64,000 bases of DNA from Mesostigma viride. Its lineage: Eukaryota; Streptophyta; Mesostigmatophyceae; Mesostigmatales; Mesostigmataceae. The stretch spans positions 2,200,448-2,264,447 of the forward strand of contig RPFO01000104.1 in the NCBI GenBank assembly GCA_009746045.1, written 5' to 3'. The translations under genes and the position numbers were made by a program. The notes below the pieces were generated by a model. The model was not told the DNA's origin, made no database searches, and worked only from the letters and a program-made list of their open reading frames with translations. Below are positions 17,651-64,000 of the stretch, piece after piece. Numbering within the stretch: position 1 is the stretch's first letter; each line of letters opens with the position of its first letter.

Positions 17651-17661
17651 ACACGGGTTAA

Positions 17662-23289: not shown

Positions 23290-26200
23290 ATGGGGCTCGC
23301 GGGCTTTATCTCAGCGGTAGTGCTCAACGGCAGCATTGCCGGTGTAGTTCTGATCATATATGCAATTTTGAGGAGATTGGACAGCCAATCACATGTCTAT
23401 TTTCCTAAGCAGAAAGAAGCTGGTGAAGACACAAAGCGGGCTCAAAAACAAAGCTTGCTAAAATGGGCGGAAGAGATGCTCAGGACGGATGAGGAAGAAG
23501 TAAGGAAAACCATGGGTTTGGACGGAGTGTCCTTTATCCGCATGTTCCGATTCGGGGTCGAGTTCTTCATATTCGCGACCATCATATGTATCGGCATCAT
23601 CATCCCCGTCAATGTCACGGACGAAGGTGTCGAGGTATGTTTCTCTGCTCGCGCCTCCCCACTCCAACTTCAGTCCACGGGTAAGCATCTGGCAGTGTTC
23701 CAGCCTGCACCGCCTCTTAACGACGCGGTGTTGTCGGACGAGTAGGAAATGGAAATCTTCTCGGGATGGCTGATTAATCATTTGTCTGTTTGTTTCTTTG
23801 TTTAAAGGATCAGAGATTGCCCCTCTTGCCTAGCTTGACTGTATCCACCTTTCCAGGCGTCTCAAGCCCGAATTCGATCACCTCAGGCACTAGGGCGCTA
23901 ACTAGCATGCTGCAGACACTCCGATTATCAATCCGCGTCTCATATTGGCCACGCGGTTGCAGTTTCATACATGTTCGATAGACTTTGCATTCACTCTGCT
24001 TCAATGACTCTTTCTTTTATCATTTTCTACGTATGTCAGATGTATCTTCTCACAAAGTCTAGGATAGATGGCGTGGCCTCGTTCTGCAGCAGCAGCCGTG
24101 GGTCATTCCCGAGATTGCTCCCATCCCGGCAGACCACCCATGATCAAGCACGGCTCCCTGGTGGCATCTATGCTTGCAGCACATTGCCCCGCCGGCACTT
24201 TGGTTGTGCCAGGCATGATTGCACGCCCATTCCTCGTAGCTTCCATGCCACTGCACAACTTGTATCCTGCCACCCACACATCGCACCCCTCCACCCCACG
24301 CACTCCCACGCTATCTCTCTCTATATTTATCTGCCTGCCTGCCTGCCCGCCCGCCCGCCCGCCCGCCCGCCCGCCCGCCCCGCCCCGCCCACCCCGCCCG
24401 CCCACCCCGCCCGCCAGCCAGCCAATACAGACGGCATCTCTCTTTTCCCAAACCACCACCAAGCTTGCTCCCTCACGCATTGATTCCCTCCCCCCACCCC
24501 CGCCCCCCTTCCCCCTTCCCTCTCCATCCCTCTCCGCCCGACCCTACCCTGTCTTTGCTTACATGCTCCCCTACCATTCCCATTCCGGTCCCACCCCCGC
24601 CCTTCCTTCCCCACACCCCCAGATCACCAACCGCGAGCTGACCACCCCGCCGCCACCACCCCTCTTCGTTGAGCCGGACAACTGCACATGCGCGTGCTTT
24701 GACGAGATCTGCCCTGCGCCCGAGTCCAACAGCACCAAAAACAGCACGGCTGAGGTCATCCTCCTCGACGACTTTGACAAGCTGTCCATGTCCAACATCC
24801 GCAAGGACTCCGAGCGCCTGTGGGCGCACTTCTTCTGCACGTGGCTGCTCACCCTGGCCGCCTTTTACCTCCTCCACAAGTACTACAAGCTGTACGTGGC
24901 CGACCGGCTCAAGGAGCGCTGCGACCCGAACGCGGCCGTTGAGTCTTATTCCATCTATGTCACCGACATGCCCAAGGAGATATTGGCCAAATCTGACGAC
25001 ACCGACGGCGAGCTGGCGGCCTATTTCAGGAGCCTCTACGGGAACAAGTACGTAGACTCGGTCGCGTGCCGGAACTACGCCGCGCTCGTGAAGCTCGTGG
25101 GCAAGTTGCGTGTTATGGAAGCGAAGCTCGAGAAGGCGCAGTGGGTGCTGGAGAACAAGAAGGAGACGCCGCAGCACAAGACCAAAGCGCTCGGGCTGTG
25201 CGGGCCCAAGGTGGACTCGATCCCGTACTGGGAGGAGGAGATCACGAAGATGAAGGGGAAGATCGCGGAGGAGTACGTGGTCGTTGTTGGGGAGAAGAAG
25301 AAGACGCCCGCCGGGTTCGTCACGTTCAGCGCGCGGGCGACCGCGTCGGTCGCCGCGCAGACGATCCACAACGCGGACGTGTACAGCTGGCGCACTGACG
25401 TCGCGCCGGAGCCGAGGGACGTGCACTGGCCCAACGTGCACTTGCGGTGGGTTGGGGGGAACCAGGTTTTCTGTGCGGGGGGGGGGGGGGGGGGGGTTGA
25501 AGGGATGAGGGCATGGCCGAACGTGCACTTGAGGTAGGTGGGCGGAAGGAAGGGGGGCTGGGGTAGGACAGGGGGCAGGGGCGTGCATGACAGGAGGGTG
25601 GAAGTGGGGAGGGAAAAAAAAGTTTATTTGACTGCGTGTAGGTGTGTTGCAGGCAGGGGCAGGGGCAGGGTTCGCGGTGGGGGAAGGGGAGAGACTGGAG
25701 GTGAGTGGTCCTTGTTGGCTCTCCTCTCATGGGTGAGTGGGAGGGGAAGAGCCAGAAGAGGGAGGGGGGGAAGGGGCGAGCGAGCGAGGGAGGGAGGGAG
25801 GGAGGGAGGGAGGGAGGGGGAGGGAGGGAGGAGGGAGGGAGGGAGGGAGGGAGGGAGGGAGGAGGGAGGGAGGGAGGGAGGGAGGGAGGGAGGGAGGGAG
25901 GGAGGGAGGGAGGGAGGGAGGAGGGAGGGAGGGAGGGAGGGAGGGAGGGAGGGAGGGAGGGAGGGAGGGAGGGAGGGAGGGAGGGAGGGACGGAGGGACG
26001 GAGGGACGGAGGGACGGAGGGACGGAGGGACGGAGGGACGGAGGGACGGAGGGACGGAGGGACGGAGGGACGGAGGGACGGAGGGACGGAGGGACAGAGG
26101 GACGGAGGGACGGAGGGACGGAGGCACGGAGGGACGGAGGCACGGAGGGGCGGAGAGACGGAGGGGCGGAGGCACGGAGGGGCGGAGAGACGGAGGGGTC

Positions 26201-29200
26201 GAGGGGCGCGGAGGGGCGGAGAAATGGAGGGAGGGAGGGAGGGAGGGAGGGAGGGAGGGAGGAGGGAGGGACGGAGGGACGGAGGGACGGAGGGACGGAG
26301 GGACGGAGGGACGGAGGGACGGAGGGACGGAGGGACGGAGGGACGGAGGGACGGAGGGACGGAGGGACGGAGGGACGGAGGGACGGAGGGACGGAGGGAC
26401 GGAGGGACGGAGGGACGGGGGACGGGGACGGACGGGGGGACGGGGACGGGGGGACGGGGACGGGGGGACGGGGGACGGGGGACGGGGGACGGGGGACGGG
26501 GGGACGGGGGGACGGGGGGACGGGGGGACGGGGAGACGGGGGGGCGGGGGGACGGGGGGACGGGGGGACGGAGTCAGGCAAGTCCAGCAAAGGCAATGAA
26601 AGAGACTGCACTCGGACAGGCGTAGACCCCCGTTGGTGTGCGGACAAGGATGCAGATCCACTCTCTCAGCGGTTCCTTTGTTTCTTTCTCGTGCTGTACC
26701 CCGTTGATCCCCCCCACCCCCTTCCCCTCCCCGTTTTTGCTCCCCATTGCCCACCCATGCCCTGTTATGCAGGTTCCAAGTTGCCCAAGTATATGTACAT
26801 TTCTTTCCCGCTCATTCCGTGATTGCCACCCCATGCTCATTCCCTGGCCGCCACCTCACACTTTTGTTCTGTGATCCTCGGATGATTCTCTCCTGGGCCG
26901 CCACATGGCAGGTACCTGGAGCGCACCACGCGCATGAAGATGGGCGCTGTCTTCCTGTTCTTGCTTGTCATTTTCTTCATGGTGCCCATCGCCTTCATCG
27001 CGGGGCTGAGCACGCTGGACAACCTGCGCAAGGCGATGCCCTTTATCGACACCATCCTCATCAAGTGCGTGCGCTTATATACTGTAGTAACCGCTACAGT
27101 GACCGCTGTACTGACCACTGGCATAGATAGGGGCTGAGCATGCTAAACAACCTGCGCAAGAAGATGCCGCTCATCGACACCATCCTCATCAAGTGCGCGC
27201 GCTAACCTCCTGCAGCAATACGGTCCGATATCTTTTGGCTCCCGACTGTGCTAATTTCCACAACGACCCCTGTTGATGCTGGCCCCTCAGTCATGTTGGT
27301 TCCCCTTCTCATTCATGCTTCTCCCTCATTGTAGCGGATTCTTCCCCCCACAGCGACGCCTGCGGGTGTCTGTTGCCCTGAGGCTTGCGCTGATCCTCTC
27401 ATTACTTTTGCTCGAACAATGTGTTGTCCACTTGTTCGTGCGGATCCTTACAGTGACACCGTCAAGGGCATCGTGGAGGGCATCCTCCCCACACTCGCAC
27501 TCCTCATATTCATGGCCTTCCTGCCGGCCATCTGTGTCGCCCTTGCCAAGGTAGACGGCTACCCCTCCCTCTCCACGATCGACCGCGCGGCCTTCTCCAA
27601 GCTCTACTGGTTTGTCGCTGTCAACATCTGGTTTGGCCAGATCGCGGGCGGCAGCATCCTTAACAAGATTGAGGAGATCACGGAGAACGTGAGCGACCTG
27701 CCCCGCATCCTGGGCCAGGCGATACCGACAACCGCGACCTTCTTCATCGACTTCACGCTGCTCAAGACGCTGGGCGTGCTGCCCATGGAGGTGCGGGGGG
27801 GGGGGGGGGGTTCGACATAGCTTTGATACTAGCATCGGTTAATTGCATGGATTAATCAGCCCTTCATGCTGCTCAGGATGCTGGGCGCTGGGTGTGCTCC
27901 CTTTGGAGGTGGGTTGGGGCGTTGATTTCGCTCGTTAGGCGTCACTAGTGTCACTCACGCAATGGGATCAGTCTCATCAAGTAATGGGATTAGTTAACCG
28001 CTACTAGTATCAGTCACGCAAGGGGATTAGCCGGCCCTGCACGACGCTCAGGACGCTCGGTGCGCGGGGCGTGGAGCTTGGTCGGGCCGCGGATGATGGA
28101 GCCACGAGCAAGGAAGGGGGTATAGTGTTTTCGTGGGTTTCGTGTCCTGCCACTATCGTGGGTGTGAGTGCGGGGGAGGGGCGCAATGGGCATAATCACA
28201 AGTATGTAGGGTTACTGTACTCATCAACGTGATTATTTGTTTCTATGTTATTATTACTGGCACTAAGTAATTATAATTAGCAGGTGGGAATATCCACACC
28301 TGATATGTCTAGGCTTCCCGAAGGCGGCCCCCCAGAGGGACCAGATTGCCTAGTTCTGGGCTGACTACTTGCCCCCTGTGCCTGTGTTACTACATGGGTG
28401 CCTGTGTTTGTGCGTGCGCGTGAATAACAAGCCCTCCTCATCGGCCTCGCCATCATCCGTCACGCACATGTCACTGTTCCGACGTTACTCCGTGGATGTG
28501 GGGGTCATGTGTGTGCGTGGGCTCGCTTATTGGGCGAACCTCATCGGCCCTGCCATCACATCTGGGATCAAGCTCACTTCACGGGTTCAGCTCACTCAGT
28601 TCACCGTATGTATATATATATATATATATTTTTCTTCAGGGTTCTTCTTCTTTTCCGGATTTTCCTTGTGTTGCATGCCCCTCTCACCTCTGTAACTTAT
28701 CATTCTCAATGAATATATATATATATTAAAAATTATAAGTGCTTACATCAGAGTGAAGGCACCCAATTAAACATAAACAAAGCCAACGCTAACAAGAGAT
28801 ACCACGACAAAATAACTGCAGCCGGCATGGGACACTCGATCCACACCTCGGAATGAAGCAAAACAGCAGGTATATATACACCTGGTCCTATTCTACTGTG
28901 TGCAATGTGCGGCTCTTCCCTGGCTTATCTCTTCGCGGTCGCAGGCACTCCTGATCGGCCCCGTCATCGTTTCCAAGATCAAGCTGAAGTTCCTGGCCAA
29001 GACAGAAAAGGAGATTGCCGCCGTCTGGGCACCCACGCCCTTTGCCTACGTGAAACACGCATCCAACACAATGCTCTTCTTCCTGCTGGTGAGGGACGCG
29101 GTCCCTTGGCACTGTTGTGTAATGCTGGCATTTTGGTGTAGGATGCAATTAGGCGCTCTGTCATGTCGTGTAAAGGACGTGTCCAACAACAATGCTCCTC

Positions 29201-30469
29201 TTCCTGCGGGTGAGTGGCGCACGCTGGCGAAATCAGTCACCTAGCACTGTGGTTTAATAGAGAGTTCTAGCTTGGTCCTTGATTTCGTTTTCACATTCAC
29301 TTTGGCATCAACGTTCCTGTGCTCCCCGGTCTGATAACGATCTTCCATCTATCTCAATCTTTAACTTCTAAATCCATTTCTCACATGTACCTTAAGTTTA
29401 TGTGGGCCATTATATCTATGTCTACCTTCATCGCTCTTCTCTTCATCCTCTTTCCCCCCCCCCGCAGGGCTTTGTCTACTCGGTCATCAACCCGATCATC
29501 ACGCCGCTGACGCTGCTCCACTTTGTGCTTGGTCTCATCGTCTGGAAGAATCAGGTGAGGCGACGAGTGCCGTAGGCAGTGCAATCGTGATGACAAAGGA
29601 ATTAGGTGAGACGACGAGTGCTGCAGGCAGTGCAATCGTGATGACAAAGGAGTCAGGTGAGGCGAGGAGTGCTGTAGGCAGTGCAGCAGCAATGCTAGAA
29701 GCTTGCCCTGCCCCCCACCCCCCGGCCCCCCTGATACCCTTTGATACCAGGGTAGTAGCTTGGTAGCTACTACCAGGTAACATTACGTTGACTCCCACTT
29801 CACGTCACGGGCATGTGCTCGATTGCCTCCCCCCCCCCCCGTGCCTACACTTGCTGCCCCTTATACCTTTGTGCTCATGACCACGCCACCCAGTATCTGG
29901 TGCCTGACATGATGCTGTCCCCATCGCACCCGTGGCTCTGTCGCATCCCCAGCTGCTGCCGATGGTTGCCCCCTCCTAGCCCGTGTGCCCACGTTTGCCT
30001 CCTCTCCTGTTGTGTGCCTACGATTTTTCTTTGCCTGTGGTCCTCCCCCCTATCCCACCCCCGACTTTACCCCCTATTCCTTCCCCCAAACCCCCAGCTG
30101 CTGCGCGTGTACACGAACGTGTACAATGGCGGCGGCGCTCTGTGGCCGATGATCCACAAGCGCATCCTCGTCTCCTTGCTGCTCATGCAGTTGACCATGT
30201 GCGGCCTGTTCTTCATCAAGTACACGTCACAGCCGATTGCGGGCATCCTGACCATCCCCCAGTTCCCTCTCACCCTCATCTTCCACCTCTGGACCAAGGA
30301 GCGTTTTGAGGACACGGACGGTTACATCCCGCTGGATGTCGCCAAGCTTCTGGATGATGACGGTACGGAGCCCGCTGGCAAGCTTGTGGCGGCGTACCAA
30401 CCAGATTTCATGAAGGAGGCCGAAAACTACAAGCCGGTCCCTGTGGACGAGGTCAAGGAGGTGCCGTGA
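23290..30469 (+). CDS. OSCA/CSC1/TMEM63-type cation channel, seven exons
   Basis: Hand-joined exons are 23290-23634, 24623-25446, 26912-27064, 27454-27790, 28945-29088, 29468-29554 and 30098-30469. All junctions are GT-AG and in phase, giving about 753 residues, a normal OSCA length. Exon 1 has TM0 (residues 5-27, [20 protein letters not shown]) and TM1 (about 86-110, [19 protein letters not shown]). Exon 2 begins with a Pro-rich loop with NCT/NST glycosylation sequons, then [20 protein letters not shown] into TM2, then the cytosolic PHM7-type domain ([38 protein letters not shown]). Exons 3-7 supply the channel domain (DUF221/RSN1_7TM): [57 protein letters not shown], the exon-5/6 helices and [23 protein letters not shown] proteins are mechano- or osmosensitive Ca2+-permeable channels of plasma or organelle membranes. 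The exon 1-2 join is least certain. Introns 2-6 carry copies of their own exon ends. Confidence 0.92.
24335..24425 (+). repeat. (CCTG/CCCG)n microsatellite in OSCA intron 1
   Basis: CTGC and CCCG units fill this stretch, with pyrimidine-rich sequence continuing to the exon 2 acceptor at 24621-24622. Confidence 0.9.
25477..25495 (+). repeat. G homopolymer run in intron 2
   Basis: About 18-19 consecutive G lie between the exon 2 donor and its echo. A similar G run follows the exon 4 donor (about 27794-27810). Confidence 0.95.
25509..25540 (+). repeat. Echo of exon 2 end and donor in intron 2
   Basis: GGCCGAACGTGCACTTGAG|GTAGGT (junction after 25533) copies the true exon end GGCCCAACGTGCACTTGCG|GTGGGT (junction after 25446). 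The 87-base offset is in frame, and translation is open from the exon to the echo. Confidence 0.85.
25785..26262 (+). repeat. (GGGA)n and (GGACGGAG)n arrays in OSCA intron 2
   Basis: GGGA units at 25785-25990, GGACGGAG units at 25989-26150, a degenerate part, and GGGA again at 26225-26262. The G-rich strand is the sense strand of the gene. Confidence 0.97.
26263..26575 (+). repeat. (GGACGGAG)n and (GGGGACG)n arrays in OSCA intron 2
   Basis: About 19 GGACGGAG units are followed by GGGGACG-type units that become more G-rich to 26572. Intron 2 (25447-26911) is therefore mostly simple repeat. Confidence 0.97.
27130..27204 (+). repeat. Echo of exon 3 3' half and donor in intron 3
   Basis: About 65 bases repeat exon 3 from GGGGCTGAGCA to ATCAA|GTGCG with about 85% identity; the junction equivalent is 27192. 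Translated, it would read [20 protein letters not shown], against the true [20 protein letters not shown]. The offset is 128 bases, out of frame. Confidence 0.92.
27858..27915 (+). repeat. Echo 1 of exon 4 end and donor in intron 4
   Basis: TTCATGCTGCTCAGGATGCT followed by GGGCG, a short insertion and TTTGGAG|GTGGGT mirrors the true TTCACGCTGCTCAAGACGCT...CATGGAG|GTGCGG. The junction equivalent is after 27908, out of frame. Confidence 0.8.
28031..28085 (+). repeat. Echo 2 of exon 4 end in intron 4
   Basis: GCACGACGCTCAGGACGCTC with GGCGTGGAG|CTTGG is a weaker second copy whose donor GT is lost. Its upstream flank (AATGGGATTAG, CACTAGT, CACGCAA) also repeats at 27945-28030. Confidence 0.6.
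28431..28460 (+). repeat. Echo A of exon 5 start
   Basis: GCCCTCCTCATCGGCCTCGC followed by CATCATC resembles the true exon 5 start GCACTCCTGATCGGCCCCGT CATCGTT at 28945. Confidence 0.65.
28537..28577 (+). repeat. Echo B of exon 5 start
   Basis: AACCTCATCGGCCCTGCCAT followed by CACATCTGGGATCAAGCTCA keeps both the LIGP-coding block and the IKL-coding block of exon 5. Confidence 0.65.
29161..29220 (+). repeat. Echo of exon 5 end and donor in intron 5
   Basis: GTGTCCAACAACAATGCTCC TCTTCCTGCGG|GTGAG mirrors GCATCCAACACAATGCTCTT CTTCCTGCTG|GTGAG. The junction equivalent is after 29209. The offset of 121 is out of frame. Confidence 0.85.
29549..29700 (+). repeat. 51-bp tandem repeat spanning exon 6 donor, x 3
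   Basis: The donor context TCAG|GTGAGGCGACGAGTG recurs at 29606 and 29657, exactly 51 bases apart, with GCAGTGCAATCGTGATGACA between. Unit 1 contains the real exon 6 end and unit 3 is most diverged. An in-frame TAG in the first unit would truncate any protein using a later donor. Confidence 0.92.
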
Positions 30470-43587: not shown

Positions 43588-43641
43588 GCGCGAAACATGA
43601 GGGGTGGGAAAACGGAATAAGCACAGAAAACGGAATCAGCG

Positions 43642-43932: not shown

Positions 43933-44149
43933 GCGGAGATAGTAGAGTGCGTTCGGATCGAAGCAGGTCGCACACCGGGGCACGGCTAGCAAGCAAGCGA
44001 AGGCGACCCCGCGCCACAAGCGCCGCCCTCCCCACATAATTGATGACTCAGACTCAGACTAGCCTTATTGATGTGAGTTTAAATTTTTCAGTTTTAGATC
44101 CCAGCGTGCAACATACAGGGATGAAAAGCACTTTAACATGTATTATTGT

Positions 44150-44215
44150 GCTCTGCGACTCCCCAATAGGAGCGCGTGTTTTATCAATGAATTATTTAAT
44201 TAATAATTTTTTCAG
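44150..44215 (+). repeat. LINE-type 3' end
   Basis: GTGCTCTGCGACTCCCCAAT followed by AGGAGCGCG and a TTAAT-rich tail: a diverged CAAC-loop hairpin end. Confidence 0.6.
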
Positions 44216-44327
44216 TTGGAAATGACGTCAAAACTGGGCTGAGTTTAAATGTTACTTATATATATATACTGTCCTGAGCCAGTAGACATCGCGCCTTACG
44301 CGGATCCGCGCTTTTTACGTTTCAGTT

Positions 44328-44527
44328 CAGACAACTGGTCTCAGACATGCACGGGGCTCGGCGTGCCATGCTTCCACGTTTGTTGTCTCTTTTCAGACAA
44401 CTGGTCTCAGACATGCACGGGGCTCGGCGTGCCATGCTGCCACGTTTGTTGTCTCTTTTCAGACAACTGGTCTCAGACATGCACGGGGCTCAGCGTGCCA
44501 ATGCTTCAGTCCACGTTTGTTGTCTCT
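44328..44527 (+). repeat. 66-bp tandem repeat x 3
   Basis: Units begin CAGACAACTGGTCTCAGACA at 44328, 44394 and 44460. The length is a multiple of three, so all forward frames stay open across it (RQLVSDMHGARRAMLPRLLS repeats), but no gene context is seen. Confidence 0.95.
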
Positions 44528-44529
44528 TT

Positions 44530-46230
44530 TCATATACTGTCACATGTCACCATTTGAGCTCAGATCGAATGAGCCCAATTTTTGTAGGTGGTCTAGTATT
44601 ATGGTTTAAATGTTGCTTGCAAGAATCCAGCTTGATATGAGTTCATTTGGTCATGATTCCTATTTGTTTCATGTAAGAAACCGGTGCAAATGGCGTAAAA
44701 CTGCATATTCATACTGTCACATGTCACCATTTGAGCTCATAATGAGCCCAATTTTTGTAGGTGGTGTAGTATTATGGTTTAAATGTAGCTTGCAAGAATC
44801 CAGCTGGATATGAGTTCATTGGTTCATGATTCCTATTTGTTTCATGTAAGAAACCGGTGCAAATGACAAAAGGTTGCATATTTATACTGTCACATGTCAC
44901 CATTTGAGCTCATAATGAGCCCAATTTTTGTAGGTGGTCTAGTATTATGGTTTAAATGTAGCTTGCAAGAATCCAGCTCGATATGAGCTCATTTGGTCAT
45001 GATTCCTATTTATTTCGTGTAAGAAAACGATGAAAATGGCGTAAAACTGCATATTTATACTGTCACATGTCACCATTTGAGCTCATAATGAGCCCAATTT
45101 TTGTAGGTGGTGTAGTATTATGGTTTAAATGTAGCTTGCAAGAATCCAGCTGGATATGAGTTCATTGGTTCATGATTCCTATTTGTTTCATGTAAGAAAC
45201 CGGTACAAATGACAAAAGGTTGCATATTTATACAAAAGGTTGCATATTTATACTGTCACATGTCACCATTTGAGCTCATAATGAGCCCAATTTTTGTAGG
45301 TGGTGTAGTATTATGGTTTAAATGTTGCTTGCAAGAATCCTGGCAGCTCGATATGAGTTCATTTGGTCATGATTCCTATTTGTTTCATGTAAGAAACCGG
45401 TGCAAATGACGAAAAGCTGCATATTTACACTGTCACATGTCACCATTTGAGCTCAGAATGAGCCCAATTTTTGTGGGTGGTCTATTTTCATGGTCTAGAT
45501 GCTGCTTGCAAGAATCCAGCCTGAAATGAGTTCATTTGTTCACTATTCATATTTGTTTCATGTCAGAAAAGGGGGAAAATGACGAAAAACTGCACATGTA
45601 TGCTGTCACATGTCACCATTTGAGCTCATAATGAGCCCAATTTTTGTGGGTGGTCTATTTTCATGGTATAAATGCTGCCTGCAAGAATCCAGCCTGATAT
45701 GAGTTCATTTGTTCACTATTCATATTTGTTTCATGTCAGAAAAGGGGGAAAATGACGAAAAACTGCACATGTATGCTGTCACATGTCACCATTTGAGCTC
45801 AGAATGAGCCCAATTTTTGTGGGTGGTCTATTTTCATGGTCTAGATGCTGCCTGCAAGAATCCAGCCTGAAATGAGTTCATTTGTCCACTATTCATATTT
45901 GTTTCATGTAAGAAAAGGGGGAAAATGACGAAAAACTGCACATGTATGCTGTCACATGTCACCATTTGAGCTCAGAATGAGCCCAATTTTTGTGGGTGGT
46001 CTATTTTCATGGTCTAGATGCTGCCTGCAAGAATCCAGCCTGAAATGAGTTCATTTGTCCACTATTCATATTTGTTTCATGTAAGTAAAGGGGGGAAATG
46101 ACGAAAAACTGCACATGTATGCTGTCACATGTCACCATTTGAGCTCAGAATGAGCCCAATTTTCGTGGGTGGTCTGTTTTCATGGTCTACATGCTGCCTG
46201 CAACAGTCCAGCTTTAGGTACCCTCAGATC
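44530..46230 (-). repeat. Satellite array, right arm (about 175 bp), inverted
   Basis: About nine to ten units of the reverse-orientation satellite (CCAATTTTTGTAGGTGG or GTGGGTGGTC blocks). Inner units (44530-45420) are more diverged from the left arm than the outer ones (45430-46190). Confidence 0.93.
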
Positions 46231-47963: not shown

Positions 47964-49602
47964 TAATTAATTAATTAATAGACACGTGACTGCGTCACGT
48001 GAGCATAAGTCCTTGAGCAGTGGGAGGGGAACATGGGATGCGGAATGGATGGTATAAGCTATCTAGGTCCTAGTTACAGGGGTGTGGGCACCGCGGCCCG
48101 AATCCCTATGAATGCCATACTTGGTCACGTACGCGGAGCCCCCACAGGCTTGGGGGTGGTCTCCTTCATCACGACTTGCCATCTGTCCTTGCGCACCATC
48201 TGCCTCCTTATTACAGACAAACCAGGAGGCTGCCCGGCCCCTGCCCGGGGGTGAGCCCGTCACGTCTAGTGTAGCACATGTCCATGCCGAGTCGATCTAT
48301 CACGAAATGTCCACGGGTGCATGGCGGCCCTGCCGCGCGCGGCCGGGGGCACGCCAGGTTAGGACATATCGCCCAGGCTGGGCGGGCTTGGTGCCAGCTA
48401 GTCTATCTGAGGTATCTACCTGATCTGTGCGGGCCAGGTGCCCGGCTAGACCCAGGCGTCTGTGCCTAATAATGTGGGAAACATAGGGCAAATCAGCGTA
48501 CAAATTCTCATTACTACTGATGTGCAAACCGAAGGGGATGTTAAGGGCCTTGCGCAGCATCTTGGTGACGGCGCCGTCGAGTCGTTGCTCCAGCGCCTGC
48601 GTCAGTGCCCACGTCTCGGCGCCGTAGGTCAGGATCGTCAGAATGACGACCTTGAAGAGGTCACGCTTGACGATCCGGGGTAGGGCGGGGTTGCTCCACC
48701 AGCGGCGGTGGTCATGGAGGTGCGCCCACGCCATGCCGATCCGTGTCGTCATGTCGTCCTCGCAGTCGGGAAGCCAACTGCCGAGCAGCTTGAAGCGGCC
48801 TGAAGGAGGGCCGGTAGTTGACCTCGGCATCGTCTAAGAGGCGGAGTGTGGTTGGGGGCCCTGCCATGCCGAGGGCCAGGGCCTCCGTTTTGGGGCTGAT
48901 TTCTAGACCATGCAACCGCCCGAGCCTCGAGCGCCAGGCAGTCCAGCCAAAGTTGGGCAGACTCCGGCTTCTCGATGAGCGTGATGTCGTCGGCATAAAT
49001 GAGGTCAGCTAGTAAATTCTGCTGGTTAGTCGGCCCCCCTTCTCCAGGCTCGTTCGTGATCGCTAGGCCAGGGGCACGGCCTGCAATGCTAGCAAAGCGA
49101 GCACGTGCCTGGCGCATAACATAATCCACTACAATAATAAACAGGTACGGCGACAGGACGCAACCCTGCCAGGCGCCGGTCTGCAGTGGGCATGGCGGGG
49201 TAAAGCGGTGTTGAGTGCGCACCGAAGTGGTCGACCCCTAGCTCATCATACAGCGTGCGGATGACGGTAATCAGGAGAGTGGGGACGCGAGCGCGAGCAA
49301 GTACAGCCCATAGAGCGTCCCAGAGGACAGAATCAAAAGCCTTGATGAAGTCGACGAAGATCAGGATGGCGAGAAACTCACCAGGTTGCAGGAGAGCGAT
49401 TTCGTCGAAGAGGCGACGCGCGACGAAGATGGCCATGACGGTGTTGCGCCCAGGACGGAAGCCCATTTGACTTTCCCCAAGGTGACAGTCGAGAGCAGAA
49501 CGAAGGCGGTTGAGGATCATGCGCATGAACAACTTGAGTGCGGCGCTCTGGATGCAGACTCCTCTGTAGTTGGCAGGCCGGTCGTCAGGGGAACCTTTGT
49601 TT
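47964..49602 (-). mobile_element. LINE 3, 5'-truncated, nested in another LINE
   Basis: TTCCTGCGCTACAT (14 bp) at 47950-47963 and 49603-49616 is the target-site duplication. The 3' end at the left has a CACGTGAC-GCA-GTCACGTG hairpin (47982-48001) and a TTAA-repeat tail (47964-47979). Confidence 0.95.
48300..49600 (-). pseudogene. Non-LTR reverse transcriptase, broken
   Basis: On the minus strand: GSPDDRPANYRGVCIQSAAL (49590), LGESQMGFRPGRNTVMA (49470), FVDFIKAFDSVLWDALWAVL (49355), a frameshift near 49225, GAWQGCVLSPYLFIIVVDY (49170), LIYADDITLIEKPESAQLWL (49000), another frameshift near 48900, then LLGSWLPDCEDDMTTRIGMA, YGAETWALTQALEQRLDGAV and HLARTDQVDTSDR. All RT catalytic Asp residues are present but spread over three frames. 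The protein is of the same type as the other two RTs in the window. Confidence 0.92.
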
Positions 49603-51195
49603 TTCCTGCGCTACATGGCCGCCCGCAAACTTGTGATCTATGCACCAGGCAGGCCAGGCGACACCATCCCAGTAGAAGACATTGCCGACATGGATCGAGG
49701 AGCCACCGCTTCGACTTTCTGTATTCTTGAGCCACGCGCAGGCCCCCAGCCTCCGGGCACTCATTGCCGCCTTAGATACCAAGATGGCAGCCGAGCACGG
49801 CCCCGCCAACACTCCTAGCGCTTCCCCGGAAGCGGACCTGCAACAGCTCAACCAGAAAGTCGCGGACATGGCTGCCCAGCTAGGCGACCTGTCAACTGCA
49901 TCTCTGCGCCAGGACACCGCCAAGAGCTACGCACCAGCATGGCTGAGGTGAAGGCAGCCCTGGCCACCTCGCCCCAGCAAGCCGCCCCATCGCCTCCCAT
50001 GGCTAAGTCGGCACGTACCATGGTGAAGCAGGCGGACATTGCTAACATGATGGCGGACGCTGCACGGCGGGCCGGGGGCAGCGGCCCACAAGACCGCAGT
50101 TGAGGACGACCAACGATCACGCAGTATTGTGGTATGTTGCTTCGAGGCCGTGCCGGTCCCCAGGAAACGGACCTCATGCTTGCACAACGCCTGCACCGGA
50201 GCCTCATAGATAGTGGGCCGGCTGCAGTTGGGCAACGAACGCATCCGCATTCAGTCGGCAGCATGGATGGCAGGCCAACCTGGCCCCATCTGGGTGACCT
50301 TCACGGCGGTGTGGCCAGCAAGGTGAAAGTCCTCAGTGCAGGCCTGCAAGATCCTGGGCGGGCGAGGAGCGCCCAGCATCGACGTACGATCTACTCTCCC
50401 CAGCCCAGCTCGTCATCAAGAACGGCAGCCTTGCTGGGCAGCGAGGCAGCGGTCCAGGCCAGGCACGACCGCATTCGCACCTGCGTCCGCGCCTTGTCAA
50501 CGACACCCCCGTTCTCTTCATTAACGGGAAGCGCACGGACTGTGCAAGCTCCGAACAAGCGGCACAACTGCCACGCTCCCAGCCAGCCCCAGCTGCATCG
50601 TCGTCGTCAACGCACGTCCCCGGTATGGAGGGCGCCTGGTAAGGGCACACCCTCGCGGCCTCGCGGTACAATAGGCTTTGGGCACAGCCTTTATTAATAA
50701 ACAAGCCCCTTTCCATCCCCATGTCGCACCGTGCGAGCATTATCAGGATGCAAGGTCGCCAGGCACGCCACGGTCAACCCTTCCGCCAATTTACCAGCCT
50801 CGATCACACGCCTCCTGGGCCGCCTTGCATGAGCGGGATGAGGCTCAGTCAACACGCCAGCGACCCCAGACAGGACGGAGACGACGCATATCCGCCCTGA
50901 TGAAAGAAAGACTCCATGCGCTGAAAAGCATGAACCCCAATCGCCACCCTCCTCCCCCCCCACCCCCACCTCCAGCACTACCCTTCTCCACCCCCACCTC
51001 CACCCCCCGGCAGCCCCCCGCTAATTAATATAGGGCAACAGCCCATTCTTGGTATTGCAAGCTTTAATGTGCGCCCCCTCCCTGCAGATCCTTCTACGAG
51101 CGGCGGCACCCCAGCACGCCAACGCGTCGATGAGCTGATCGCCTTGTACGTGCGCCGACAACAAGATCGATCGCCCGGTCCTCTTCGACAACAAG

Positions 51196-51349: not shown

Positions 51350-53167
51350 CAGTGTTTCTGCTAACGCACCGGTACCGGTAATTCTCCGGTAATTACCGGT
51401 GCCCCCCCGGCCGACCGGTATGCTATATGCCAAGCAGGAAACCCCCCCGGCCGACCGGTATGCTATATGTCAAGCAGGAACCCCCCCCCGACCGACCGGT
51501 ATGCTGTGTTCAGAGCAGGAACCCCCCCCCGGCCGACCGGTAAGCCATGCCCGGGCTGACCTGGTCGACCGGGAAGCAAATAATGCCGGCCGAGGTTCCC
51601 CTGTTTCCCCGTCAGACAAACCCGGTACTTATATACTGACTATTACAAAATATCAATTTCGATTAGTATATGTTACTATTCCCGGCACTTGCAAATAGTT
51701 TGCACATTGCTGCCATGCTAACACCTCCACCGAATGTAAATTCCGACACAGCAGAGCCCTACTGAATGCCCGACGAAAACCAGTGCGCCAGGGCATGGAA
51801 TCTCGCGCGACGGTCCTATCGTAGCTACAAGATACCTTACTGATGAGGTTAAAATAGTATAGTGCGTGACCCTCAGATGCAGTATTAAAAAAATAATCAT
51901 GGGCAACGGCTCGTCAAGGCTAGGCGAATTTGCACAAACATTGCTCGCTCGCGACTTGAGTTGTCGTTGTTGTTGCCCACTTTTAATACCGGCCGGCGTG
52001 AGCTTGACCAGCACAAATCTCGTTGTTGTTGATGTTGAGTTGAGTTGAGTTCTTGGACGTGCTAACAACTACTGTTGATCGAGGAGGGGCTAAAGTTTCA
52101 ACTTCAATTTGTGAGCAAATAGATTATCCGTACCCAAGTAACAAAAGGCGTGGCGCGGTGCAGATCTGACGTCCTATAACGAATGGGTCAGCACTCAGCA
52201 CTTGGCAGCCGGCAATTCCAGTCTGTCAAGTGCGTAGACTTGAGCGGGTAACAAATGCGCTGCAGAATGCCTGCAGCAGTAGGTACGCAACACGATGTAA
52301 AGGTGCTGAGCCGCTAGACGATGCATAAAGTTCACGGCAGTCGAGCCAGCTGACTTTGTTTTGCGTGTTTTCTAATCCTACATTTTTCGATAGTGCGCTA
52401 GAGAAGTGAATCATGACGAAGAAGAAAGAGCCCCCGATTCCCCTGGGCTACAAGTTCAAGGACCATTTCACATGAGGTGGTGGCGTTTTGACCTTGGCTG
52501 GCAGTACGAGCGGTCGCCGGGCTTTGGGCACGGTCGTTACACACCAGGCGCAGGCAGGCAACGAGTTAGAAGGGGACGACACTGATAAGACGAATGGGGA
52601 TGAGGGTGCCGTAGAGCAGGGCGATGCAGGTGGCTCGGCGCACCCACAGCGCGAAATTCATGGCGGTGATGTTCCGGAGCAGGCCATGTCGGAGCAGGTT
52701 GTTTCGACTCCGGCCTATGGGTGTATACGGTGCATGCAAACCCTAAGGCGGCATCGTGTGAGGTCACGCCAATAATGTATGGGTGAGCTACTGTGAGCTA
52801 CATAGCCTACAAGTGATGACAACTATGTTTTGTAACCTCCTATTGTGACTAGGCATGCTTGTATGCATGCTAAATTATCATTTTCGTATGTTTTATTAGG
52901 GAGCCCTGCGTATGCCAAGGCTATGTGAATCAGGAGTCAGGGCACAAGCAGCCCACTAAGGCAAGGCTTCAAAGTTTAGGATAAATTATATAACTGTATA
53001 AGAAATCCTATTGGGTTTTTATTTTTCTAAAAAAAATTCGCCAACATCCGGGGGGGGTGGAGCCCCCCCCGGCCCCCCCCCCCGGCCCCGGCCGCTTCGC
53101 GGCCTCGGCCGGACCCCCCCCCCTACCGGAGTTACCGGAACCCCCCCACCCCTTAGCAGAAACACTG
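51350..53167. mobile_element. hAT-like element 2, non-autonomous
   Basis: The 8-bp target-site duplication AGTAGCCC lies at 51342-51349 and 53168-53175, inside a retroposon. The TIR CAGTGTTTCTGCTAA is at the left; the right end is its inverse with AGG following. Subterminal GGCCGACCGGTATGC blocks repeat four times at the left (51400-51545), and a GGCC/CCGG-rich segment sits at the right (53050-53150). No transposase. A tiny frame at 52412 (MTKKKEPPIPLGYKFKDHFT) is unassigned. Confidence 0.9.
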
Positions 53168-53757: not shown

Positions 53758-56670
53758 ATGGTGTGGCAGCGCCCCTGTCCCCCCAGGAACCTTACTGTTC
53801 CCACTAAGAACATGCTCATCCCTGCCGGCAAGTAGTTGTGTTCCTGCTTCGTTCTCTACGGCAGAAGAGCTCGTCTTCTTTACAACTTTTGGTGATCCAT
53901 GCTCATCCAAGGAGTCGTGGCACACAGGGAGCATGGCGAATCCCTCAGCCACAGGTCTCCTGGATCTCAGCACATGGACAAACGCGAAGTAGGCCCCCAG
54001 GGTCACCAGCACAGCGATGGCCAGGCCGCGGAACATGGTGGCTGAGGGGTGATCAACAGGCACAGCACGCAGAGAATATAATAACAAAAATCAAAGTGAA
54101 TGACGCATCATTAGGTCAAGGAGACATGTTAACATTGAAGAAGATGGTAGCTGAGAGTGTGTGCACGCATTATATGCATCAGACAAGCAGCGAAATGAGG
54201 TATGGGCCGCGGGAATTATATGCATCAGACAAGCAGCGAAATGAGGTATGGGCCGAGGGAAAACTTTTATCTGTCATGGAGGAACTTTCCGATGATAATG
54301 GCGGCTGAGGAGGGAGGATTACCATGTCCATCATAGACATAGGACTATCAACAATATCCACAATAGGATCAATCAACAAATATGGTGTGTGGGTCATTCA
54401 GTGGACATTGCACAAAAACATGGCGGCTGAGGGAGGCGTGCGCATATTTAATCTAGAGTATTGTGAACCACTCATAATTGTTATACACACAGGAAGCACG
54501 ACCAGATCGGAAACCACCCCCATGTTAAGGTCCCCTGAAAAGGGCTGCCTTCCGAGGCGGTAGCAACACAATGATGCGCATGGGTCAAGGAGAAATTTCT
54601 ACATGAAGATGGCAGCTGAGACGGTGTGCACGAATAGGTTATACAGGGAGCCACAAGACTGCACCAAACCAGAAAATGTTGACGCCAAACCAGTGATGAA
54701 AATGAGTCCATGAACAACCAAGTTCATCCGACAGATACATTTATAATCCTTAGAAACATCGGAGACATATGATAAAGAAGAGATCATGGATACACAATCT
54801 TAAGAAACCACCAACAGAGAGGTATGATAAAGAAGAGATCATGGATACACTCTCTTAAGAAACCACTAATAGAGACATATGATAAAGAAGAGATCATAGA
54901 TACACTATCTGAAGAAACCACCGACAGCCCAACACTACGCACTTTCCCGCAGAAATTATATAATGCCCCTGCAGTCCAGGAAGCATATTTTCTTCAGACA
55001 GTAACTGCCAGCGACGATACATACAAGGCCTGACACTACGAATCTCAAGCAAGAGCGATGTTTCGTACCTTGCAAGTATTGTCTCCCTGTCTAGCATGAG
55101 CCATGGGAATAGCGCACGCCGCCCATCAGGGTTAGTGCTCCGTGACTCCCCAACGGGAGCACGAGTTTAATGAATTAATGGAAAACGCTAAGCCTAAGTT
55201 GCAGCTAATCCACACACACAACGGATTGTAACCGCCACAGAACTAGTATGTAGCGCAGCATACAAACTGTTCCACAACTTGCAACCTTTATCCACTCCAC
55301 TGCAACCACCTTCGTATCACGCTGCTTTCTGATCATTGCCTCTGCCAAATACTCATCCAACCAGCCGGCCAAATTAGCTATTCACCTTGTCCAACTGGCT
55401 TCCCCTGCCACGGGCGCCAGCAGTATCGTTGCGCAAGCTAGGCAGCCATGTCTCAGGTTGATTGCTATCCACTGACATCAGTGCTTCCCTGTGGCTCCGA
55501 GAGACTGAGCCATATCTCCAAACCATGGCCATATCTCCAAACCAGGTGTCCGCTATCCCTGCCTCACCTCCGCCAAACCGTTTGTAGACGAACCCAGCGA
55601 TGAGAATGCCCGTGCCGTTCCCGTACCCAAAATAGATCGATGTGAAGATGGACTGGCGGGGTGTAACGCGGAGGGGTTTTATGTGGCAGGGTGTTACGTT
55701 GCAGGGGCCATGGCGGGGTGTTGCATGGCAGGGTGCTGGTGGGAGGGTGTTAGTGGCGGATTGTTGATGCAGGGCAGGGTGTCCGTGGCAGGGTGTTGAG
55801 AGCATGCACGATTCGCATGGTCCCTTCAACGTGTCAGTAGAAAAAGATTAGGGATCACGGGCGCCTGCTCATCGTCGGCCTGGACGAATCCAATCATTGT
55901 CGGAGCAAATACTGTCCTCTCATTGTCGGAATAGGAGGACTGAGACTGATTGATGCCTGATGCCTGATGCCTGATGCCTGATGCCTGATGCCTGATGGCT
56001 GATGACTGATGACTGATGCGTTACAGCGATCAGGTTCATGCCGTCTCCTTACGATGTGGGGAGGAGCACGCGACCACTCAACCCAAAAATGTAAAATAAT
56101 AATAATAACAATTATTATAATTATTATTACAGTCATAATAATAGTAATAATAATTCAACAACGTAACACAACAGCGTGCTGCAAGAACTTCAAATTGTAT
56201 GCTCCAGGACAAGTAATAGCAGGTTCTGCAGCTGGGCAAAAAAAATGCACAGTGCACCAGAGAGCCTGAATTCGAAAATTTCTTCACATACATCGCCTGC
56301 ATGCCCTTGAGTACACCCTCATGCCCATGAACATTGAATATCCTAATATACGTGCCAAGTAGTTCCCATAAGCATCATTAGCCGTACTTTCCACGAATCC
56401 CACTATATCTAGCAAAATTCTCTCCCTATAGTATTGAATATTCTAATAACCAATTAAAAGACTCGGGTCGAACACGCGGGCCGCTAACATGGCGGGCACA
56501 CAGAGCTCGGCGATAATAGCATTCGCGCGTCCGGAAGTTGCCACCCGCTCGGAAGGCCAGAAATTTCTGTGCTTGGAGAAGAAGAGCAATGCTTGAACTG
56601 GAAATATTGCAAGGCGTGACAGGAACCGTTACAAACGTCGCGGATCTCTTTGTTGATTTGCCGTCAGTCA

Positions 56671-59700: not shown

Positions 59701-62197
59701 AGGCAGCTCCACAAAAAAAAGGTTATGAGAGCGGCGACAAGAGACAAAGGCTGGGCTGCCCACAGATAAATATTTTCACAAGAAGTTGCGATAAAAAAAA
59801 CCGAATGGCTGCGAGCGCGATGCACTTGTGAGTTCTGCAAAACGACAAGTGCAACGTGGGAAGTGGCAAGATGCAAAAGCCACAAGCTGCAAACACACGA
59901 GTGGCGAGATATGAAATGGACTCGGCATCCTCCATGCATTCCAAACCGCTCCCTCCCTTCTCTCTCTCCCTCTCTCCCTCCCTCCCTCCCTCCCTCCCTC
60001 CCTCCCTCCCTCCTCCCTCCCTCTCCCTCCCTCCCTCCCTCCCTCCCCTCCCTCCCTCCCTCGCTCCTCCCTCCCTCCCTCCCTCCCTCCCTCCCTCCCT
60101 CCCTCCCTCCCTCCTCCCTCCCTCCCTCCCTCCCTCCCTCCCTCCCTCCCTCCCTCCCTCCCTCCCTCCCTCCCTCCCTCCCTCCCTCCCTCCCTCCCTC
60201 CCTCCCTCCCTCCCTCCCTCCCTCCCTCCCTCCCTCCCTCCCTCCCTTGCGTTTCCGTCCCTTCCCTCGCCTCCCTGCCGCTCTCCCCTTTCCCCTCGTC
60301 CCTAACCTCAACGAAAATTGCAGGGACTAAAGAACCATCCGTGCCTGTGCGTGCAGTCGGGTGATGTACCCAATCCATGGCCACATCCAGACAGGCGCTG
60401 ACATCATGATTCGTTCATACCAGGCAGAAGACACCCCATCTCATCAGACGCTGGCGTCGTGACTGGATGCGGTGAACCCAAAGTGGAACGAAGAGTGTTT
60501 TCTTACAAGGCTTTTTTCTCTCCGGAACCCCCTTAGAAGAAACAATACAGGCTGGTGGACCAAGTACCCATGTCCAACCAAGGCTGGCTGACCAAGTACC
60601 CATGTCACAATAGGGCTGCTCGACCCATACCCGCCAACAATGCCGCAAAGCAAAATGAGCACCAAGCACAAAACACGTTCACAGCAAGTGGCAAGTTTTA
60701 CACTAGATGTTTAGAATACATACAGGTTTACAATACATACAAGTGGCAAATAGTTAGATAGATACTGCTATCTCCTTGACAGGGCTGATTACTCGATTCC
60801 CATCTCCTGATCAAGAAACAAACAAGCACTGCGAAGCAGACACTTGGGTCGTAAGTACATTCACGCCTTCGGGTCGACCCGATTAATCCGGCGAACCCAA
60901 CTCAATGCGGGAATGACTGTAGTGGATTTTGCATCCTTATTTGGTTTTCGGCAACATGTCCCCAATATTCCTGTTTCAAGGCTCGTTGACCTATCCCCAC
61001 CTCCCCCACCTCATCGCGGAGGAGATTAGCACAAGGAACCAGTCATTAGTACCCTAAACGGTAGGGTTTCTTTATATGGATCCACCCTTCCTCTCCCCCC
61101 CAGCCGTAGCTCGACATAAACGAGCACCAGGAGCCTGACACATGTACCATACTTGGGGGGGTTGGTTGACCCCCCCCCACCCCAACCCACCCCCCCCCAC
61201 ACACAACCCCCACCCCCACCACACACCTGATCACAAAGCAAATAAGCAAGAGGAACCTGACACTCAAGTACTGTACTTGGTGGTTTGGGTTTTGGTTGAC
61301 CCCCCCCCCCCGAAACACACCTGATCACAAAGCAAATAAGAACAAGGAACCAGACACACAACCCCACCCCCGACACACACCTGATCACAAAGCAAATAAG
61401 AACAAGGAACCAGACACACAACCCCACCCCACCACACACCTGATCACAAAGCAAATAAGAACAAGGAACCAGACACACAACCCCACCCCGACACACACCT
61501 GACCACAAAGCAAATAAGAACAAGGAACCAGACACACAACCCCACCCCCGACACACACCTGATCACAAAGCAAATAAGAACAAGGAACCAGACACACAAC
61601 CCCACCCCCACCACACACCTGATCACAAAGCAAACAAGAACAAGGAACCAGACACACAACCCCACCCCCGACACACACCTGATCACAAAGCAAATAAGAA
61701 CAAGGAACCAGACACACAACCCCACCCCCGACACACACCTGATCACAAAGCAAATAAGAACAAGGAACCAGACACACAACCCACCCCACCACACACCTGA
61801 TCACAAAGCAAATAAGAACAAGGAACCAGACACACAACCCCACCCCCGACACACACCTGATCACAAAGCAAATAAGAACAAGGAACCAGACACACAACCC
61901 CACCCCACCACACACCTGATCACAAAGCAAATAAGAACAAGGAACCAGACACACAACCCCACCCCCACCACACACCTGATCACAAAGCAAATAAGAACAA
62001 GGAACCAGACACACAACCCCACCCCCACCACACACCTGATCACAAAGCAAATAAGAACAAGGAACCAGACACACAACCCCACCCCCGACACACACCTGAT
62101 CACAAAGCAAATAAGAACAAGGAACCAGACGCCGTCGACGCCCAGCTTGTCGATCAGTCGCCCCGAGAAGAACATGGCAGGGATCTCGGCCGCACAT
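53755..62197 (-). CDS. MFS_1-like (MFSD6-type) transporter, C-terminal half
   Basis: Hand-joined minus-strand exons are 62197-62096, 59477-59386, 58232-58180, 55652-55568 and 54041-53755. All are GT-AG and every phase matches. The joined protein reads CAAEIPAMFFSGRLIDKLGV / VWFLVLICFVI-R / AGYYSLLTTPWAVLPVEVLH then GVTFGCAYTAG / TLHLQQVAPPQLANTVQ / SIFTSIYFGYGNGTGILIAG then FVYKRFGG / ATMFRGLAIAVLVTLGAYFA. These are the hallmark blocks of MFS_1-like membrane transporters: EIPxxFFSG before TM8, R..YSL..PW.VLPVExLHGxTFG, and APP...A...Q with an F/YxGxG loop. They correspond to about TM7-TM12. A basic/acidic cytosolic tail (HVLRSRRPVAEGF) follows. The N-terminal half should lie beyond 62197 but was not found. 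The substrate is unknown. The stop codon comes from a retroelement tail. Confidence 0.85.
54171..54262 (+). repeat. 46-bp tandem duplication in MFS intron
   Basis: TATATGCATCAGACAAGCAG followed by CGAAATGAGGTATGGGCCG occurs twice, 46 bp apart. Confidence 0.95.
54765..54925 (+). repeat. About 58-bp tandem repeat x 3 in MFS intron
   Basis: Units contain TATGATAAAGAAGAGATCAT, GGATACAC and TTAAGAAACCACCAACAGAG, with few changes. Confidence 0.93.
55115..55185 (+). repeat. LINE 3' end in MFS intron
   Basis: GTGCTCCGTGACTCCCCAAC then GGGAGCACGAG and a short TTAAT tail, as in LINE 2. Confidence 0.85.
55653..55800 (-). repeat. Repeated acceptor-like motif before the 55652 exon
   Basis: On the minus strand ACACCCTGCC or ACACCCCGCC recurs about seven times, ending in the real acceptor CCCCGCCAG|TCC. 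The real 3' splice site is thus one copy of a degenerate repeat. Confidence 0.6.
55950..56012 (+). repeat. (GATGCCT)n short repeat
   Basis: Seven-base units GATGCCT change to GATGACT at the end. Confidence 0.9.
56500..57480. repeat. MFS intron segment with internal duplication and hairpin
   Basis: 56755-56825 and 57300-57370 are diverged copies of one block (ATTGGGAG, AAGTACGCGAC, AATCC, GGGCCAAT). At 57235-57265 ACTAATTTAGCTT is exactly inverted around TAGCC, a 13-bp stem, then repeated directly at 57270. CAGCCAGCCAGCC runs lie at 56680-56705. No exon was recognised. Confidence 0.55.
58050..58086 (+). repeat. (GTACT)n microsatellite
   Basis: About seven GTACT units lie in the MFS intron. 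Confidence 0.95.
59957..60247 (-). repeat. (GGGA)n array in MFS intron, sense strand G-rich
   Basis: The plus strand shows CCCT units; the transcribed RNA of the MFS gene would carry GGGA, as in OSCA intron 2. Confidence 0.97.
60555..60620 (+). repeat. Short duplication in MFS intron
   Basis: GGCTGGTGGACCAAGTACCC, ATGTC and GGCTGGCTGACCAAGTACCC are imperfect tandem copies about 35-38 bp apart. Confidence 0.8.
60858..60919. mobile_element. Degraded mariner-like MITE
   Basis: Flanked by TA (60856-60857, 60920-60921). It starts CATTCACGCCTT and ends GGGAATGACTG, matching the ends of the element at 62900-63076 with a shortened interior. Confidence 0.6.
61227..62095 (-). repeat. Tandem array of exon end plus 5' splice site, 13-14 units
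   Basis: Each 58-60-bp unit repeats the last 34 bases of the upstream MFS exon (from TCTGGTTCCTTGTTCTTATT to TGATCAG) followed by GTGTGTG and a G-rich intron start. Junction equivalents are at 62036, 61976, 61916, 61857, 61797, 61739, 61679, 61619, 61559, 61499, 61440, 61381, 61321 and, more diverged, 61227. The real junction is at 62096. Further decayed traces occur near 61130 and 61028. Confidence 0.97.
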
Positions 62198-63078: not shown

Positions 63079-64000
63079 CATTATTCGAGGAGAGTGAGTT
63101 AGATTTGGAATGTATGAGAATTTGACATGGTAAACGCGCCATGGTAAACGCGCAACAACAAGTGATGCCAGGGAGCAGAAGGAACCCTTCCAGACGCAGT
63201 CCACACAGCAGCCAAGGACATCGGCGCGACAGCCAGAAGCATGCAGCGACGACGTGGCATCCTACGGCTATACAAGGCAACCGTTCGCAAGGTTGGTTTC
63301 CACTCTTGTTGTCCAAGAAGGGGGCAGGGCGTCCAAGAAGGGGACATGGCATCCAAAAAGGGGGCAAGGCAGCACAGAAGGGGGCGACCGGAGCGACCCT
63401 GACCTATGTATAGATTGGGGGGTTGATGCAGGACAACACGGGAGACAAGAAGAGCGACAAGTAGGCTTTACAAGGGGAGGCCCTGCGTCTAAAGGGGTCG
63501 AATTCCTTAGCCCTAGAATGGACCCTGGTGGCAAGATGTGGCCGAGAAAAGGAGGTGGGGGCTACCATGATTGCAAGATGTGGCTGAGGAAAGGGAGTTT
63601 AGTGCGGCAAAGAGGGAGCGTAAGTGCTGGCTTACATTGGAGCGAAGGCCTATTCAAAGGTAGCCAGCTATCAAAGAACACTTGCTCATGTCACCGTGAA
63701 GGTCGGTTGACAGAGGCCCAGCTGGGCAAGATGGAGCTACCTTGCTAAAAACGATGGCTTCTGTCTGCTTTAAGGGAAATATAGCTTGCTGTGAAAAATA
63801 TGGCTCAGGCCATGGCCCAAATCAGTCAAAAGGGGCCTAGCTATGACAAAGCACGATGGCTTACGTCACGGTGAGGGTCAGCCCCATGAGCAGCTTTGAG
63901 CCCCCCATTTCTTCCAGGTACAAGAACAGGTGTGCTGACGAGGCAGGGCAAGGTAGTCAAACGCGGTACAACACACACACACACACTCACAGAGGGGGAG
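63079..64000. other. Unassigned sequence
   Basis: No supported gene. Overlapping plus frames (63141-63748) lack recognisable motifs. AAGAAGGGGGC/AAAAAGGGGGC units repeat at 63315-63385 and a CA run ends the window. Confidence 0.35.

Follow-up and report, generated by a model that had tools for sequence, protein, structure and literature searches.

A tandem array of an exon end and its 5' splice site in a Mesostigma viride transporter intron, and an excess of donor-spanning over acceptor-spanning copies in 52 introns

Introduction

UBC, the human polyubiquitin gene, according to Duan et al. 2024 (PMC10809524) carries a tandem array of dual-specific AGGT sites and is spliced to a variable number of monomers; the same text reports that introns with dual-specific sites are enriched in tandem repeats. 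A related idea, the AGGT tandem-duplication model of intron gain (Rogers 1989; Gao and Lynch 2009; Hellsten et al. 2011), is reviewed in Ma et al. 2016 (PMC4974935), which also reports that a duplicated segment in potato spans the boundary between an intron and an exon. In fission yeasts, 24-nt tandem repeats have been described in gained introns of two genes (PMC3629103, accessible part), and in long Drosophila introns, recursive splicing proceeds at ratchet points, which are zero-length exons (PMC8605326, accessible part).

Here we describe an intron of the streptophyte Mesostigma viride in which the end of the preceding exon, together with its donor, is followed by 13 further copies of itself. 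The intron lies in a 64,000-nucleotide stretch of contig RPFO01000104.1, referred to as the window. Judged by title and abstract, our searches of an open-access library listed no report of such an exon-end/donor array within an intron, nor of the excess of donor over acceptor copies of exon ends that we observe in a sample of 52 introns.

Results

A transporter exon end and its donor are repeated in the following intron

Six minus-strand MFS exons (63934-63865 to 54041-53755) join into one open frame, which matches the PF12832 MFS_1_like profile over positions 235-372 with an E-value of 3.9e-29, unbroken across the CFVIR/AGYY junction. This match supports the predicted exon 62197-62096 and its presumed splicing from the first donor (62096 to 59477). 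A PDB sequence search gave no significant match (best E 0.062).

63865..63934, minus strand: MFS exon upstream of the array exon; the 5' end of the gene lies outside the window
62096..62197, minus strand: MFS_1_like exon that closes with the 35 nt repeated in the array (...TTTGTGATCAG); phase 2 end, AG/G; continuous frame and PF12832
59386..59477, minus strand: next MFS exon, on the acceptor side of the array intron; joined frame and PF12832
53755..58232, minus strand: remaining MFS exons (58232-58180, 55652-55568, 54041-53755); joined frame and PF12832

Exon 62197-62096 terminates in ...GTCTGGTTCCTTGTTCTTATTTGCTTTGTGATCAG, followed by GTGTGTGTCGGGGGTGGGGTTGTGT, after which 35 exon bases and the donor are repeated 13 times, all within the one intron between this exon and exon 59477-59386. 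Together with the exon's own (last base 62096, GT from 62095), there are 14 copies of exon end plus donor on the minus strand. Tandem Repeats Finder (TRF) fits a 60-bp unit to 61302-62130, with 13.9 copies and 96% matches, as well as a 357 bp higher-order period that corresponds to six units. Successive donors are spaced by 60, 60, 60, 59, 60, 58, 60, 60, 60, 60, 59, 59 and 60 bp, and the units vary slightly, being of GTGTGTGTCGG or GTGTGTGGTGG type, differing in the lengths of their G-runs and showing two A-to-G changes. In the head-to-tail order of its units, their size of tens of bases, their number and their high identity, the array resembles a minisatellite. Further copies, which are older and more decayed, lie beyond it.

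61321..62095, minus strand: young array of 13 GT...AG units of 58-60 bp (TRF and unit count), with copies whose GT starts at 62035, 61975, 61915, 61856, 61796, 61738, 61678, 61618, 61558, 61498, 61439, 61380 and 61320
61200..61261, minus strand: older copy of exon end and donor, GT from 61226, 56/63 identical; unrelated bases separate it from the 61320 donor
60991..61042 (end approximate), minus strand: old decayed copy with a donor-like GT from 61009, 38/52 identical
60806..60841, minus strand: old decayed copy reading GATCAG/GA, its GT lost, 27/36 identical

To judge from these alignments, two phases are recorded in the intron: spaced copies that are older, and a 60-bp amplification that is young. 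The array is real, and chance is no issue. When the 440 Mb of the genome (2243 contigs) were searched with the array unit, a search that scores only the best candidates, all 14 reported matches fell inside the array, on one 7.88-Mb contig; the same search found no second haplotype of the locus among the candidates scored, and a scan of viral contigs for the unit gave 0 matches. The preliminary description of this DNA had reported 13-14 repeats of an exon 3' end with its donor in units of 58-60 bp, in agreement with the TRF copy number and with our count of 14, which includes the exon's own; the repetition of the exon part stands too, its length being 35 nt rather than the 34 bases claimed, and the exon at 62096, there taken for a genuine MFS exon, is borne out as such by the profile match.

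Elsewhere in this gene, a decayed copy of the donor of exon 63865..63934, of marginal support (p=0.007), lies at about 63704-63651. In intron 5, several CTCAG[C/T]..CCAT pieces at 54150-54660 on the minus strand look like the beginning of the last MFS exon (54041); the piece at about 54426, which is significant in the boundary-anchored comparison and absent from the hits of the exon-only test described below, is a possible acceptor-side counterpart.

Exon-end copies recur in a neighbouring gene

The window also contains a CSC1/TMEM63-type gene, in which five of the six introns (2, 3, 4, 5 and 6) hold an in-register copy of exon end and donor, 51-128 bp past the donor, with an additional, weaker copy near 28077 in intron 4.

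23290..30469, plus strand: CSC1/TMEM63-type gene, exons 23290-23634, 24623-25446, 26912-27064, 27454-27790, 28945-29088, 29468-29554 and 30098-30469; PF02714 (E 3.7e-69), PF13967, PF14703
25500..25548 (outer limits approximate), plus strand: copy of exon 2 end and donor in intron 2, GT 25534, 39/49 identical
27130..27218, plus strand: copy of exon 3 end and donor in intron 3, GT 27193, 74/89 identical
27862..27919, plus strand: copy of exon 4 end and donor in intron 4, GT 27909, 42/58 identical
29167..29220, plus strand: copy of exon 5 end and donor in intron 5, GT 29210, 44/54 identical
29548..29685, plus strand: 51-bp tandem array of 2.7 copies (TRF) across the exon 6 donor, GT 29555, 29606 and 29657

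Other features of the window include open frames that by eye are similar to LINE-type reverse transcriptases (YADD, FVD.TKAFD) at 16396-17751 (minus strand), 31389-32456 (plus) and 48300-49610 (minus), and several arrays of a 173-bp unit at 41138-46214, interrupted by 109-bp and 66-bp arrays (TRF). A histone gene at 21166-21552 (minus strand) forms one open frame (PF00125, E 1.9e-23), is H2B-like by eye and has a plant- or green-alga-like look. ACCGGT-rich repeats, again by eye, are present both at 51380-51545 and, outside the window, in kinesin region L059 just past its donor copy, and could be one family. At L054, 5000 of the 10000 bases adjoining the window are N.

Donor copies outnumber acceptor copies in 52 introns

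We compared exon ends and exon starts in 11 introns of the window and 41 introns of chaperonin (PF00118) and kinesin (PF00225) genes, which belong to unrelated families, from the same 440-Mb genome, a non-random sample of 52 introns from four gene families. Outside the window, introns were taken only between adjacent Pfam hits with fitting model coordinates (23 for chaperonins, 22 for kinesins). For PF00118, 57 of the 58 listed rows were used, one single-exon gene being omitted, and for PF00225 116 of 129, with full-length single-frame and isolated rows omitted; 12 of the 27 kinesin regions were sampled, picked before the analysis by list place, size and number of hit pairs. A copy was sought within 800 bp downstream of each donor and upstream of each acceptor, as a boundary-anchored match scored against shuffled introns (p<=0.004).

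In the window and chaperonin introns, donor copies were found in 15/34 and acceptor copies in 3/34, and in the kinesin introns, repeat allele included, in 6/22 and 2/22, respectively. These earlier counts retain the alleles L052 and L061, which repeat L050 and L059 and were removed from the 52-intron set. Without them, 20/52 donors and 5/52 acceptors have a copy (Fisher p=0.001). The excess is also seen outside the window (14/41 vs 3/41, p=0.005), where exon ends were inferred from Pfam hits and consensus, a procedure expected to lose true cases and not to create them. Taken by group, it is significant in the chaperonin introns (9/22 vs 1/22, p=0.009) and not in the kinesin introns alone (5/19 vs 2/19, p=0.40); the window introns gave 6/11 vs 2/11 (p=0.18). 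L050 (C887) and L052 (C1641), with about 2% mismatches, look like alleles of one chaperonin gene; one of their introns measures 912 bp in the former and 4087 bp in the latter, a difference of roughly 3.1 kb.

When the query was reduced to 43 exon bases stopping three bases before the splice site, copies of exon ends were recovered in 16 of the 52 introns (15 anchored, 1 local) and copies of exon starts in 3/52, while exon bases -106..-63 had copies in 0/52 introns. Among the 15 anchored exon-end copies, 12 have a GT at the predicted place, L041_4354 has it one base later and L062_1612 has GC; the copy in L063_1294 lacks a donor and may be due to chance. A tandem origin is plain from the alignments of the apparently young cases, with clean units of 76 bp in L051, 70 bp in L058, 58 bp in L056, 51 bp in CSC1 intron 6 and 60 bp in the MFS intron. 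In several older copies (L046_2535, L040_4899, L039_6646), the alignment covers the exon part and no more than a few bases of the intron; the match in L046_2535 (37/41) is too good for the remainder to have simply decayed, and this case calls for a spaced duplication or for replacement at a later time.

Selection at acceptors and mutation at donors as possible causes

When a duplication spans a donor, transcription would reach the correct donor first, leaving the copy within the sequence to be removed; when it spans an acceptor, transcription would reach the wrong acceptor first, and splicing to it would add intron junk to the message. We lean towards an explanation built on this asymmetry, to which we give somewhat more credence than doubt: short-range duplication is widespread in introns of this genome, donor-spanning copies persist, acceptor-spanning ones are mostly lost, and the MFS array is an extreme case. 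Short local duplications, with copies 47-248 bp apart, would arise widely in introns. One that crosses a donor would place the last 7-63 nt of the exon and the donor inside the intron, and would be retained because splicing continues from the original donor upstream, so that the copy leaves with the intron. A duplication crossing an acceptor would put a functional acceptor ahead of the real one; junk would then be spliced in, and most such events would be purged by selection. In the MFS gene, older rounds would have been followed by a renewed amplification of the unit, yielding 13 near-identical copies. These units are intron-shaped, with GT, a candidate CUUAU branch site, a pyrimidine-rich stretch and AG, and their junctions could serve dual-specifically. 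Two elements of this explanation are conditional, namely that the first donor presumably wins in copy-bearing introns, and that selection, rather than mutation, probably produces the excess of donor over acceptor copies. Points against it include that the exonic original is conserved, so that its copies stay detectable longer, that several older copies lack the intron part that simple tandem duplication predicts, and that comparisons of alleles over about 9 kb showed few tandem indels.

Local duplications are indeed abundant in these introns. Before the kinesin set was added, 53/386 interior positions had a copy without MFS intron 2, and 72/427 with it; in the exon-style test, the figure for all introns except MFS intron 2 was 76/460. 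Relative to this last background, exon ends are copied more often (16/52, p=0.02) and exon starts less often (3/52, p=0.04). In a per-class comparison, with one test per intron and class in the 51 introns of >=250 bp, copies were found for 15 exon ends, 8 pieces at +30..+73, 13 at +80..+123, 11 at -123..-80, 7 at -73..-30 and 3 exon starts. Exon ends thus differ from exon starts (15/51 vs 3/51, p=0.003), and not significantly from the adjacent intron pieces (15/51 vs 21/102, p=0.23), whereas exon starts fall borderline below theirs (3/51 vs 18/102, p=0.05; p=0.10 for complex queries only), so that the direction of cause is weakly fixed. As a whole, the class comparison leans towards a filter at acceptors over a hot spot at donors.

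It is nevertheless conceivable, although we consider it rather unlikely, that the excess is mutational: the G-rich sense strand after donors, through R-loops or G-run stalling, would raise duplication there, acceptors follow C/T-rich sequence, and selection at acceptors would be unneeded. G-rich sequence after donors does accompany the copies, as such a cause would predict. Over their first 100 bases, introns that hold a copy have a GC skew of 0.38, as against 0.15 in those lacking one (p=0.004), and the skew of the last 100 bases is -0.34, although the first of these results is partly circular, as the copy itself lies within the 100 bases measured. At interior positions, copies concentrate in the top third of G skew (44/155 vs 18/154 and 15/159, p=1e-5), and after removal of low-complexity queries they occur at 83/340 positions of positive and 40/271 of negative skew (p=0.003, the positions not being independent). 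The skew difference within introns, however, is not significant (p=0.11), and intron pieces beside acceptors (11/51 and 7/51) are copied about as often as those beside donors (8/51 and 13/51). We do not accept G-richness after donors as the whole cause, and retain it as a serious rival to selective loss of acceptor-spanning copies.

A more specific coupling is improbable in our estimate, namely that a transcription- or splicing-linked process directs duplication to 5' splice sites, which would leave an in-register echo of the exon end and donor in about a third of introns, its copies acting as downstream decoys or dual-specific junctions and the MFS array forming a 13-step splice ladder.

The array units as candidate splice sites

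Slightly less probable still is a functional splice-site bank or isoform ladder, in which inner donors, or dual-specific or recursive AG/GT junctions, would be used to add 20-60 residues or to remove the intron stepwise. The units are compatible with such use. Counted from its donor, each starts with GT and ends with AG, a shape that the preliminary description overlooked. On a simple consensus the junction scores 7.0 as a donor, where 52 inferred donors have a median of 6 and an upper quartile of 7, and its AG scores 2.21 as an acceptor, within the range of 52 inferred acceptors (25th percentile 1.86, median 2.57), a yardstick that is partly circular and biased upward outside the window, since acceptors there were picked with the same score. 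The 95th percentile for 280 AGs in exon tails is likewise 2.21. The exon end codes for a hydrophobic transmembrane helix and is therefore U-rich, reading like a pyrimidine tract, with CAG as its last bases, and CTTAT in the unit (CUUAU in RNA) is, by eye, a candidate branch site. Given GT...AG units whose AG lies in the acceptor score range, every junction of the array is a candidate dual-specific AG/GT site. A unit of this shape would be removable as an intron as well as keepable as an exon, and any junction-to-junction splice within the array could leave the message unchanged. UBC provides a precedent for an array of this kind (PMC10809524, accessible part).

Translation past the 62096 donor stays open for 20, 40 or 60 added residues, and the first three copies are spaced by 60 bp, just as the preliminary description had it; the first stop follows at 61863, and in frame terms 7/13 array copies are out of frame or beyond it. 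With a single unit of 20 residues added, the PF12832 score falls from 102.3 to 87.6 bits, and if the hydrophobic segments added were odd in number, the topology of the transporter would be expected to flip. In other genes, copies often lie at distances not divisible by three (128, 118, 121, 95, 74 and 47), and we rejected alternative coding exons as a general rule for them on this ground. Of the two readings offered in the preliminary description, a splice-site bank or membrane-helix switch has therefore gained no positive evidence, with the poorer profile fit and the frame shut after three units, whereas a neutral duplication array seeded on the donor is supported and can be widened beyond this locus, as 14/41 donors outside the window have an in-register downstream copy.

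An assembly artefact, in which read collapse or expansion produced the array or its length, is very improbable: although one contig carries the array, its units differ in sequence and length, the contig spans 7.88 Mb, and a kinesin donor copy (L059_1364) occurs on each of two contigs that differ by 1.9%. We rejected a mobile or introner-like element, as the 14 reported unit matches all lie in the array and the copies in other introns derive from their own exons.

Discussion

How splicing bypasses an equally good donor about a hundred bases downstream is an old question that has been studied with engineered duplications. The introns described here provide a natural series: past the donor they hold from 1 to 13 copies of exon end and donor, which vary in age, and acceptor counterparts are fewer. 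If the copies are retained owing to first-donor choice, this series measures that rule in vivo; if some of them are used, it gives a view of isoform ladders or of introns being created. For gene prediction it carries a warning, as exon-like, donor-bearing pieces of introns can be echoes rather than exons.

In form, the MFS array resembles the UBC, AGGT-duplication and fission yeast cases, and the statement in the preliminary description that no named class of this kind is known was too strong in view of the UBC array (PMC10809524) and of intron gain by AGGT duplication (PMC4974935), as far as the accessible parts of both papers describe them. It shares with UBC tandem units bounded by AG/GT that are readable as exon or intron, with acceptable donor and acceptor scores at the MFS junctions, the acceptor yardstick being biased upward outside the window. 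In the accessible part of that paper (PMC10809524), however, UBC is built of 228-nt coding monomers that all keep the frame, with splicing shown by RT-PCR, whereas the MFS unit is an intronic exon end with its donor, 58-60 nt long, in frame for the first three units only (stop at 61863), and its sites are candidates proposed from sequence. As in the AGGT model, the duplicated AG/GT supplies both GT and AG, and every MFS unit is GT...AG; in that model, as the accessible text presents it (PMC4974935), a new intron arises inside an exon, while the MFS copies appear to lengthen an existing intron. The fission yeast introns likewise have tandem repeats running on into the neighbouring exon, but there the proto-splice site AGGC lies within coding repeats, and the accessible part of the report describes no donor-only bias (PMC3629103). 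Like the ratchet points of Drosophila, the MFS junctions are intronic AG/GT sites preceded by a pyrimidine-rich stretch; in the accessible part of the source (PMC8605326), ratchet points are not described as a tandem array, and the MFS junctions are putative sites. Finally, the 58-60-bp unit, 96% matches and 357 bp higher-order period are those of an intronic minisatellite, from which the MFS array differs in that its unit includes a coding exon end and donor and starts within the exon.
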